Shown one piece after another: positions 59,926 through 62,883 of a DNA stretch of 64,000 bases. Made by a program: the position numbers and the translations under genes. The notes below the pieces were generated by a model. It was not told the origin of the DNA and ran no database searches. It saw only the letters and a list, made by a program, of their open reading frames with translations. Numbering within the stretch: the stretch's first letter is position 1; every line of letters begins with the position of its first letter. Source of the stretch: Spirochaetota bacterium (GTDB taxonomy: Bacteria > Spirochaetota > UBA4802 > UBA5550); assembly GCA_017999915.1 (NCBI GenBank), contig JAGNKX010000001.1, forward strand, positions 372,001-436,000, read 5' to 3'.

Positions 59926-60103
59926 CTGTCATTGCGAGGAGCGCAGCGACGAAGTATGCCTCGGCTTCTCCTCGACTATGCTCGGGGCGAGCGCTCGGCA
60001 ACCAGCTGTACCCCGATCGAAGCGGTGCGGTGAGCCCTTCGACGTCGCTCAGGACAAACCTGTCGAACCGTCGAGGGGCGCTTCGTTACACTGGCGATGA
60101 CAG
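59926..60103. mobile_element. MITE-like element with terminal inverted repeats
   Basis: The 178-base element begins CTGTCATTGCGAGGAGCGC and ends GCGATGACAG; the ends are inverted copies of each other. TCATTGCGAGG-AGCGCAGCGA-CGAAG is a repeat type seen in several unrelated bacterial genomes. An internal segment (CTTCGAC, GCTCAGGACA) resembles another common dispersed repeat, so it is composite. There is no coding capacity. It lies between the large membrane protein and flaB1. Confidence 0.6.
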
Positions 60104-60397
60104 GCAAAATAGTGATTAACTGTATTTTTATGATGGCTTTTAGGATAGTTCCAAGGAATTATTTAAAATCTGGGCCAATATTAACGTCATTAATAAAAAA
60201 TTTATCAATTTACAAAAAAAATAAAAATTTTCTAACGTAAAATATTGAAATTCCGACAATTTGATTAGGAAAAAAATGCAAAAAATCAGCAAATATGATA
60301 AAATATAATAATATATTTATATATTTATTAATAACAAATGATAATCGCCTATAATCGCCTATAATCAGGATCAATAAAATCCTCCCTGAAACCGAAT
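60104..60397. other. A+T-rich upstream region of the flagellin locus
   Basis: This stretch is extremely A+T-rich. Near 60341-60369 the unit ATAATCGCCT is repeated in tandem, producing two perfect TATAAT hexamers (60350-60355 and 60360-60365) with no good -35 partner. Curved DNA or an upstream sigma70 promoter is possible. No gene is present. Confidence 0.4.
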
Positions 60398-60424
60398 TAA
60401 AACATGAGAGGTGAAAGCCGATCA
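60398..60424 (+). promoter_or_regulatory. Sigma28 (FliA) type promoter of flaB1
   Basis: TAAAACAT (60398-60405), an 11-base spacer and GCCGATCA (60417-60424) match TAAAGTTT-N11-GCCGATAA at TAAA and GCCGAT with exact spacing. It lies 45 bases before the flaB1 start. Transcription should begin near 60432, inside the first leader hairpin. Confidence 0.6.
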
Positions 60425-60468
60425 GGCTGGCAAGGAGGCCAGCCGCGTAAGATTCAGGGAGGAATCTT
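60425..60468 (+). promoter_or_regulatory. Tandem ARGGAG hexaloop hairpins in the flaB1 leader (probable CsrA sites)
   Basis: Hairpin 1 pairs GGCTGGC (60425-60431) with GCCAGCC (60438-60444) around AAGGAG. Hairpin 2 pairs AAGATTC (60449-60455) with GAATCTT (60462-60468) around AGGGAG. Both have perfect 7-bp stems and six-base loops showing GGA, the preferred CsrA target. The second contains the flaB1 ribosome-binding site and ends two bases before the ATG. Confidence 0.65.
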
Positions 60469-60469
60469 A

Positions 60470-61315
60470 ATGATCATCAATCACAACCTGTCTGCCATCA
60501 ATGCCAACCGTGTCCTGAAATTTCAACACTGGAACGTTGACCACTCAATGGAAAAGCTTTCCTCCGGCATGAGAATCAATCGGGCCGGCGACGACGCTTC
60601 CGGCCTTGCCGTATCCGAAAAAATGAGATCTCAGATAATGGGCCTTCGCCAGGCGGAGCGCAACACCGAAGACGGCATGTCAATGATCCAGACCGCCGAA
60701 GGATACCTTCAGGAAGTCAACGACATCATACAGCGCATGAGGGTCCTCGCGGTCCAGTCTTCCAACGGCATATACACGCAGGAAGACCGGCAGTATATCC
60801 AGGTGGAGATTTCCGAGCTTGTCGATGAAGTCGATCGCATTGCCTCGCAGGCCGAGTTCAATAAGATGAAGCTTCTCCTGGGCGATTTCTCCCGGTTGAA
60901 TCCGAAAGCCTCCATGTGGTTTCACATGGGTCCGAACATGCACCAGCGCGAGCGGGTATTCATCCAGACCATGACCGCCGTCGGACTGGGAGTCCGTGAT
61001 TCCGTCGGCAGGCCCATAAGCCTCTCGACAGCTGACTTTGCCAACCGCAGCATCGGCTTCTTTGATGAAGCAATACATATTATTTCAAAACAGAGGGCCG
61101 ACCTGGGCGCCTATTACAATCGCCTTGAACACGCGGCGAAGGGGCTCATGAACGCCTATGAAAATACCCAGGCGTCTGAAAGCCGCATCCGCGATGCCGA
61201 CATGGCGGAAACGACCGTCGATTACACCAAATCCATGATCCTGGTCCAGAGCGGGACCGCCATGCTGTCTCAGGCCAATAACAGGGCCCAGACCATACTG
61301 GAGTTATTGCGTTAG
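60470..61315 (+). CDS. flaB: Flagellin FlaB (first copy)
   Basis: The ATG at 60470, after GGGAGG, gives 281 residues, the usual FlaB length. It begins [14 protein letters not shown] and carries the conserved D0/D1 helices ([23 protein letters not shown]). The short centre has the spirochaetal [14 protein letters not shown] segment. The end has R-I-R-D-A-D-M-A-E and an A-N-N-R-A-Q-type helix. In spirochaetes FlaB forms the core of the periplasmic flagellar filament. Regulation is probably by sigma28 and by the leader hairpins. It is followed by a stem (61347-61368) and then a second flaB. Confidence 0.97.
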
Positions 61316-61346
61316 TGTTTTAGTGGTTTATAATCATATTTTTGTT

Positions 61347-61368
61347 CCGCCGGCTGTGGGGCCGGCGG
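61347..61368 (+). terminator. Hairpin between the two flagellin genes
   Basis: CCGCCGGC and GCCGGCGG form a perfect 8-bp stem around TGTGGG. No U-tract follows, so it may attenuate or stabilise rather than fully terminate. Confidence 0.4.
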
Positions 61369-61508
61369 GGCAAGCTCTTTGAAAACTCTGTAACGTACAA
61401 TACCGACATTGCGGCAAGCATGTAGCTCTAATTTTAGGTACTCATGGTTGCAGCAATGCACCAACAGGTATTCCCTGTAAAAAAAGTAAATAACCTGGTA
61501 AAGAATAA

Positions 61509-61550
61509 TTCCTGATAAGGAGATCGGGAAAAGTAAAACAAAGGAGTGTT
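61509..61550 (+). promoter_or_regulatory. Tandem AAGGAG hexaloop hairpins in the flaB2 leader (probable CsrA sites)
   Basis: Hairpin 1 pairs TTCCTGAT (61509-61516) with ATCGGGAA (61523-61530), 8 bp with one T-G pair, around AAGGAG. Hairpin 2 pairs AACA (61537-61540) with TGTT (61547-61550) around AAGGAG, which is also the ribosome-binding site. The layout copies that of flaB1 with unrelated stem sequences. Confidence 0.6.
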
Positions 61551-61555
61551 AGACT

Positions 61556-62407
61556 ATGATAATCAATCACAACATGAGTGCGATCAACTCCCACAGGGCG
61601 TTGAAGTTCAAGCACTGGGACGTTAACAAATCAATGGAGAAGCTGTCCTCCGGTATGAGGATCAACCGGGCCGGCGACGACGCTTCGGGTCTTGCCGTAT
61701 CTGAGAAGATGAGAACCCAGATCCAGGGCCTGCGTCAGGCGGAACGGAACACCGAGGATGGAATGTCCTTCATCCAGACCGCGGAAGGGTATCTTGACAA
61801 CACGTCTGCCCTGCTGCAGCGGATCAGGGTGCTGGCGATCCAGTCTTCCAACGGCATCTATACCCAGGAAGATCGTCAGCTCATCCAGGTCGAAGTTTCT
61901 GCTCTCGTAGACGAAGTCGACCGGATAGCTTCCCAAGCCGAGTTCAACAAATTCAAACTGCTGCTCGGCGATTATGCCCGGACCAACCCGAAAGCCTCCA
62001 TGTGGTTCCACATGGGTCCGAACATGCACCAGCGTGAGCGGGTCTATATAGGCACCATGACCGCGGAAGGCTTGAATCTGAAGGAACGGACCGGCAGATT
62101 TCTTGTTAATCTCAGTACCGCTGAAGGTTCGAATAAGGCTATCGGCTCGATCGACGACTCTCTGCATAAGATCGCAAAACAGAGAGCCGACCTTGGCGCT
62201 TACTACAACCGTCTCGAATTTGCTGCGAAAGGTTTAATGAGTGCCTATGAGAATATTCAAGCATCTGAAAGCCGTATCCGCGATGCTGACATGGCTGAGT
62301 CGTTAACCGATCTGTCCAAGGATCAGATACTCGTTCAGAGTGGAACTGCCATGCTTGCTCAGGCAAACATGAAGACAAGGACAGTATTACAGCTTCTCGG
62401 TGGTTAA
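61556..62407 (+). CDS. flaB: Flagellin FlaB (second copy)
   Basis: This encodes 283 residues, closely similar to the first flagellin throughout the D0/D1 helices and the [11 protein letters not shown] segment. It differs mainly in the centre ([15 protein letters not shown]) and ends V-L-Q-L-L-G-G. AAGGAG precedes the ATG at normal spacing. Multiple FlaB proteins co-assemble in spirochaetal filament cores, with copies differing in abundance or position; the specific role of this copy cannot be told. It is followed by a strong intrinsic terminator. Confidence 0.97.
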
Positions 62408-62450
62408 TACAAAAATTAGATGAAACGCAAAAGGGAATACCACCAGGCGC

Positions 62451-62476
62451 AAACCCGCTCGAAAGAGCGGGTTTTT
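62451..62476 (+). terminator. Intrinsic terminator of the flagellin locus
   Basis: AACCCGCTC and GAGCGGGTT form a 9-bp stem capped by a GAAA tetraloop and followed by a T run (62471-62476). This is a textbook Rho-independent terminator 44 bases after the flaB2 stop. Confidence 0.92.
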
Positions 62477-62577
62477 TATTTACATGGAAACAGAGTCGTG
62501 ATGACAATGGGAAGGAACGGTCTCTCTCAGAAGGGATAAGCTCTCAGGGATACGCGATTATTTAATAAAGGAATTGT

Positions 62578-62883
62578 TCAGGCCAGGGCGTCGAAAAACG
62601 AGCCGGGCTGGATGCCAGAGGTTGTTTTCCGGGAGATGCCCGCCGGGGAATACTCGTGATGGGAGCCGCTTTTCATCAGGGCCAGCATTTTGTCATGGTC
62701 TTCCGGCGAAGGCTTGGAATAGGTGATATTCGATTCCGTCCTTCTCGTTACGCCGTGGATATTCTCAACGCGCCCGGCGTTGTACAGGGGCCAGACATAG
62801 AACTTTTCTGATGCGATCCTGTTGTTCGCCATGCCGCTGAATCCGATTTCGGCCATGCCGGTGGAAATTCTCATAATTATCAT
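62578..62883 (-). CDS. Small protein of unknown function
   Basis: This encodes 101 residues from ATG 62883, or 98 from the ATG three codons on. There is no clear ribosome-binding site. The sequence begins M-R-I-S-T-G-M-A-E-I-G-F and contains E-D-H-D-K-M-L-A-L-M-K-S-G-S-H-H-E-Y-S-P-A-G-I-S. No signal peptide or membrane helix is visible. It is convergent with the flagellin genes and separated from them by the terminator. Codon composition resembles neighbouring genes, which supports it being real. No family is recognised. Confidence 0.55.
   Translation of the reverse strand: MIIMRISTGMAEIGFSGMANNRIASEKFYVWPLYNAGRVENIHGVTRRTESNITYSKPSPEDHDKMLALMKSGSHHEYSPAGISRKTTSGIQPGSFFDALA

Follow-up and report, generated by a model that had tools for sequence, protein, structure and literature searches.

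The window analysed here, a stretch of 64,000 nt, lies within contig C1 of a 5.46-Mb genome (99% complete) whose host is an uncultured member of Spirochaetota. It carries a tandem flagellin pair, flaB1 (60470-61315; 281 aa) and flaB2 (61556-62407; 283 aa), both with the Pfam domains Flagellin_N and Flagellin_C; the two genes and the leader elements described below all lie on the forward strand. The flaB1 coding sequence starts at ATG 60470. Extending flaB1 upstream to an in-frame ATG at 60404 would give 303 aa; this start was rejected because the distance between the two leader hairpins, H1 and H2, varies from one orthologue to another by amounts that are not multiples of three. Upstream of flaB1, at about 59930-60110, there is a GC-rich stretch that resembles an inverted-repeat or mobile element.

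The flaB1 leader contains two perfect hairpins with GGA hexaloops, an observation of the first-pass annotation that the sequence confirms. The distal CsrA-type hairpin, H1 (60425-60444), presents the loop AAGGAG (60432-60437) between the arms GGCTGGC and GCCAGCC, and the proximal one, H2 (60448-60469), presents the loop AGGGAG (60456-60461) between TAAGATTC and GAATCTTA. Stems of 7 bp had been claimed for both; this holds for H1, which has 7 Watson-Crick pairs, but not for H2, which has 8 and ends at 60469, directly before the ATG. One hairpin does enclose the ribosome-binding site, as had also been noted, in that the Shine-Dalgarno sequence of flaB1 lies inside the H2 loop. Both GGA sites thus sit in short hairpin loops of the ANGGA type, 24 nt apart, within the range of 10-63 nt that a CsrA dimer can bridge (PMC7652899). 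In the whole window, 11 perfect hairpins combine a 6-nt loop with a stem of at least 7 bp, and H1 and H2 are the only two of them with an ANGGAN loop, whichever strand is read. An RNA thermometer hiding the Shine-Dalgarno was considered and set aside, as this sequence sits in the H2 loop and is not paired in a stem. A scan of 60000-62600 against Rfam, with E cut-offs of 5 and 1, returned nothing at or above gathering, and no Rfam family covers the flaB1, flaB2, flaB4 or flaB5 leaders in the loci scanned.

How this leader folds depends on where its transcript begins. Ahead of the hairpins, flaB1 orthologues conserve a TTCAATT-spacer-CCGA pattern, which we liken to sigma-28 promoters; from it we place a putative sigma-28-like promoter at 60371-60397 (TCAATA at 60371-60376, CCGAAT at 60392-60397), and the 5' end of the flaB1 transcript is likely to fall near 60404. 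RNA beginning at 60404 and ending anywhere from 60472 to 60500 forms H1 with a probability of 1.0 and the inner pairs of H2 with about 0.98 or more. When the modelled RNA is extended to 60530, H1 stays at or above 0.93, as it does in all folds computed, and H2 drops to about 0.48; H2 is disfavoured both by including additional coding sequence in the fold and by starting the RNA further upstream. In RNA starting at or before 60380, H2 is displaced by an 11-bp helix between TCCTCCCTGAA (60380-60390) and TTCAGGGAGGA (60453-60463), the former being a perfect complement of the flaB1 Shine-Dalgarno region. Two start sites might therefore select two folds, with a start upstream of 60380 locking the Shine-Dalgarno against TCCTCCCTGAA and a start near 60404 yielding H1 and H2. 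The helix has a probability near 1 once 60380 is included, but its upstream arm precedes the putative -10 element and overlaps the spacer of the putative promoter, and the two or three closest genomes alone keep this arm, and then only in part. For these two reasons, overlap and poor conservation, we demoted the anti-Shine-Dalgarno helix to a minor rival and regard a switch between start sites as very improbable.

The paired hairpins, by comparison, are maintained across relatives. We aligned 23 flaB1-type leaders (alignment A2), picked by their coding start regardless of hairpins, and found that 10 of the 15 pairs of H1 and H2 have changed on both sides. Both-sided changes occupy 43 cells, whereas shuffling gives 18.6 on average and none of 500 shuffles reaches 43; 84.4% of cells are paired, and every slid register is far worse. 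Compensatory changes affect five of the seven H1 pairs over 22 distinct rows, so that the stems of orthologous flaB1 leaders vary with compensation around fixed loops. The structure is kept by compensatory changes less clearly in the inner part of H2: its five inner pairs are nearly invariant, which means that support for H2 is mostly sequence conservation and that the distal stem supplies most of the covariation. Across 78 leaders, the median closing-pair probability is 0.985 for the distal hairpin versus 0.32 for the Shine-Dalgarno hairpin, which is weak in most relatives. The weakness of the proximal stem counts against a dual-site operator; a strong distal stem paired with a weak proximal one nevertheless fits a CsrA dimer that anchors distally and then bridges.

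These data also bear on whether the hairpins could control translation with no protein involved, their stems tuning ribosome access or mRNA stability without CsrA. H2 of flaB1 is stable by itself (inner pairs about 0.98), and 75 of the 78 leaders tested have a stable upstream stem (closing pair above 0.5), as such a mechanism would have it. What evolution has kept, however, is the loop A-N-G-G-A while the stems change, and neither the strength nor the sequence of the stems is preserved; the Shine-Dalgarno sits in the loop of H2 rather than in its stem, and the upstream hairpin H1 makes no contact with it. We therefore consider protein-independent control improbable and favour a leader that is read by CsrA.

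The reading of the first-pass annotation hinged on csrA, and the genome encodes it once (E 3.4e-24), with fliW, the gene for its antagonist, also present once and directly before it in the order flgN-flgK-flgL-fliW-csrA. Treponema denticola and Leptospira reportedly share this order (PMC9481697, PMC8668096). The CsrA protein has 85 aa with a C-terminal tail and can be aligned with CsrA chains of the PDB, among them the one in entry 5dmb, which contains FliW as well. It retains the HRKEIY block, the N at position 55, which we take to be important for FliW in B. subtilis, and R44. The last of these residues matters for RNA binding (PMC7652899). Among 59 spirochaete genomes, csrA occurs in 55 and so do hairpin-pair matches (model R1, below), but as both are near-universal, their co-occurrence has no power as evidence.

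The twin-hairpin operator recurs before flaB2 and, with the exception of flaB5, before every other full-length flagellin gene that the genome carries. To gauge its breadth, we surveyed the leaders of 147 flagellin genes in this genome, its relatives, and further named loci, alongside 139 other genes of those loci and 735 shuffled leaders in which the GGA loops were kept. An NNGGAN hexaloop hairpin of at least 3 pairs covers the Shine-Dalgarno in 110 of the 147 flagellin leaders (other genes, 11/139; shuffles, 62/735), and this hairpin is accompanied by a second one upstream in 96 (other genes, 4/139; shuffles, 6/735). When stems of at least 7 pairs are required and GU is allowed, the 90 nt that end at the start of each of 146 spirochaete flagellin genes contain 92 hexaloop hairpins, of which 74 have an ANGGAN loop, compared with two of 19 upstream of the 139 other genes. 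With ANGGA loops and a separate set of criteria, 89 leaders have both hairpins, and in 78 of these the loops are 20-32 nt apart.

We captured the hairpin pair in a covariance model, R1, built on 61 of 78 leaders, the rest being omitted mostly as near-duplicates; since its rows were selected for having stems, covariation in the R1 alignment is partly by construction. In its own 5.46-Mb genome, R1 gives five significant matches (E at most 1.2e-4; 49.9 to 37.2 bits), all of them flagellin starts: flaB1, flaB2, flaB4, the C24 flagellin, and, at the end of a contig, a flagellin fragment, the only one of the five outside the training set. The next-best match scores 19.5 bits (E 1.3). When the 59 spirochaete genomes were scanned, flagellin starts accounted for 149 of the best 150 matches listed. 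Among these 150, 130 lie at flagellin starts already catalogued, and one more (G013:C393) is flaB2 by its coordinates; another 19 were retrieved, and 18 of them continue into the N-terminus of a flagellin, which in two cases can be read no further than MIIN because the contig ends. Training on flagellin leaders means that part of these matches arise by construction and that other target geometries would be missed. The remaining match among the best 150 listed precedes flgN in genome G058 (Pfam FlgN, E 2.8e-15), at 263-304 of locus L202 (G058:C1:79762-79803), about 4.3 kb upstream of csrA on the same contig. A twin-hairpin operator ahead of csrA's own operon points to CsrA as the ligand, and CsrA feedback on that operon is possible in G058. 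The flgN of the genome under study has no ANGGAN hexaloop with a stem of at least 4 pairs, so CsrA autoregulation is unsupported there.

Several characterised flagellin leaders share this layout. The nearest experimentally shown case is flaA of Campylobacter jejuni, in which two ANGGA stem-loops, the second over the ribosome-binding site, are spaced by 21 nt (PMC4894983). The flaB1 leader resembles it in its adjacent ANGGA hexaloop stem-loops, the second over the ribosome-binding site, in the compensatory changes among relatives, and in the presence of fliW in the genome; it differs in its 24-nt spacing, in that binding and repression are proven for flaA and predicted here, and in the repetition of the operator on several flagellin genes. 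The hag leader of B. subtilis likewise has two CsrA sites, one over the Shine-Dalgarno, with FliW as antagonist (PMC7652899). That system has been demonstrated experimentally, and the comparison of it with flaB1, which has two CsrA-type sites, one of them over the Shine-Dalgarno, in a genome with fliW, covers site layout. Within the same phylum, a GGA hexaloop at the Shine-Dalgarno of Leptospira biflexa flaB3 and L. interrogans flaB4 is bound by CsrA in gel shifts, and csrA stands in the same flgN-flgK-flgL-fliW-csrA order; the available text of that source describes the Shine-Dalgarno site alone, without a second upstream hairpin, unlike the arrangement at flaB1 (PMC8668096). CsrA sites near the Shine-Dalgarno of T. 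denticola flaB1 and flaB2 are mentioned, in the part of the source available, without data (PMC9481697), and tethering by CsrA has been described for glgC (PMC7652899).

Taken as a whole, we consider the flaB1 leader to be, with a probability of roughly 0.9, a dual-site CsrA operator on the mRNA with release by FliW. Loop identity, 24-nt spacing, the position over the Shine-Dalgarno, compensatory stems, and near-exclusive occurrence at flagellins all support the CsrA-type leader that the first-pass annotation had suggested. In the mechanism we propose by analogy with the systems above, the stable distal H1 would serve as docking site for a CsrA dimer, which would span the 24 nt to H2 and, by covering the Shine-Dalgarno in its loop, keep 30S subunits off the flaB1 mRNA. 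FliW, freed upon flagellin export, would then take CsrA away and allow translation. CsrA does not repress flagellins universally, since csrA overexpression raised flaB mRNAs in L. interrogans (PMC8668096).

The leader of flaB2 has such a hairpin pair together with further elements. Its distal CsrA-type hairpin (61509-61530) has 8 bp and the loop AAGGAG (61517-61522), and its Shine-Dalgarno hairpin (61537-61550) reads AACA-AAGGAG-TGTT. Upstream lie a further hairpin, P1 (61409-61456; TTGCGGCAAGCATG / CATGGTTGCAGCAA), and, at 61468-61498, near-invariant blocks without Rfam match, namely GTATTCCC (61468-61475) and AACCTGG (61492-61498). Among 27 of 28 flaB2 leaders (one had masked bases), the distal hairpin, P1, and the Shine-Dalgarno hairpin together show 64 both-sided cells against 20.3 in shuffles, a count that none of 500 shuffles reached; nine of the 12 pairs of P1 have changed on both sides, and 91.7% of its cells are paired. 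Covariation supports the distal hairpin and P1, and the Shine-Dalgarno hairpin weakly. A search for a further long-range helix in this leader gave, as the top unassigned column pair outside P1 (185/212), one that is inconsistent between near relatives. In some genomes, as in the flaB2 leaders L030 and L031 from the same genus, a third GGA hairpin stands between the distal and Shine-Dalgarno hairpins. The flaB4-flaB5 spacer (L035, about 2360-2665, on contig C10 of G000) and its counterparts in nine relatives encode a leader RNA roughly 300 nt long that contains, among other blocks, GGGAGGGCATCACCGGCTGCCGG, TTATGGGCAGTC, and GAAAACCTTCGG; the ten sequences give 57 consensus pairs, 24 of them changed on both sides, with no Rfam match in the loci scanned.

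The flaB1-flaB2 spacer holds a second kind of element. Just after a GC-rich hairpin (61341-61374), at 61376-61387 and about 170 nt upstream of flaB2, stands the 12-mer TCTTTGAAAACT, identical to the sequence found in the 16S leader of the same genome, which we take to be boxA by comparison with bacterial rRNA leaders. The whole genome contains three exact copies, before 16S rRNA (75 nt), flaB2, and flaB4 (those outside the window are at G000:C1:755879 and G000:C10:126609), and zero copies of the reversed control pattern; flaB5 has a copy with one mismatch. The same 12-mer, without mismatch, lies upstream of 16S in most order-level genomes with a readable 16S leader. Allowing at most one mismatch, boxA occurs in 26 of 28 leaders with a flaB2-type Shine-Dalgarno (this genome's flaB4 included), in none of 22 flaB1-type leaders, and before 3 of 122 other genes; within 400 nt of 142 flagellin leaders it was found in 42 and the reversed motif in none. 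Among the matches listed in 35 genomes, we classed 126 exact copies: 30 upstream of flagellin genes, 15 just downstream (flaB4-flaB5 spacers), 13 before 16S, 1 after 16S, and 67 elsewhere, against a sum of 19 for the reversed control in the same genomes. Inspection of 20 of the copies elsewhere identified four as 16S leaders at contig ends and seven as lying inside open frames. The 12-mer was not found in print in the literature searched.

A plainer function for this element would be that of an anti-Shine-Dalgarno, given that RNAalifold pairs its TCTTTG with CAAAGG of the flaB2 Shine-Dalgarno. Both sides of that pairing are invariant, however, and the same 12-mer also precedes 16S rRNA; for these reasons we prefer boxA. 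In known systems, boxA of rRNA and suhB works with NusB/NusE (PMC5725501, PMC4807359), suhB showing that it can act outside rRNA (PMC5725501). The flaB2-spacer copy matches the organism's own 16S-leader boxA exactly and NusB is encoded in the genome; it differs from the rRNA and suhB elements in lying upstream of a flagellin gene and is putative, being recognised by sequence. In E. coli, S10 and nusB raise flagellar operon expression (PMC10578931). The string 'flagell' occurs nowhere in PMC5725501 and 'boxA' nowhere in PMC10578931, and our search of the literature on boxA with flagellin found no cis-element. A 16S-identical boxA before flaB2 and flaB4 makes NusB/S10 antitermination of flagellin genes a testable new idea: boxA in these leaders may promote antitermination, the rival being a repressive role like that in suhB. 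We give even odds to double RNA control of the long-leader spirochaete flagellin genes, in which boxA-NusB/S10 readthrough would be coupled with a CsrA hold on translation.

The flaB1 leader itself most probably belongs to the known hag/flaA kind of CsrA-regulated flagellin leaders. What we add is that this design extends phylum-wide, is all but confined to flagellins, and has one exception, at flgN near csrA. The twin-hairpin CsrA-type operator is the standard flagellin mRNA design in this order of uncultured spirochaetes and is found in other Spirochaetota lineages too, and the R1 model finds flagellin starts with few exceptions. The less expected part is boxA, together with the long structured leaders behind it. 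Beside the operator, boxA offers a concrete cis-element for the link between NusB/S10 and flagellar expression, so far proposed in E. coli from experiments on S10 and nusB (PMC10578931). If double control is true, full-length flagellin mRNA could build up, silenced but ready, until release by FliW, and flagellin output would be tied through boxA to the ribosomal antitermination machinery.
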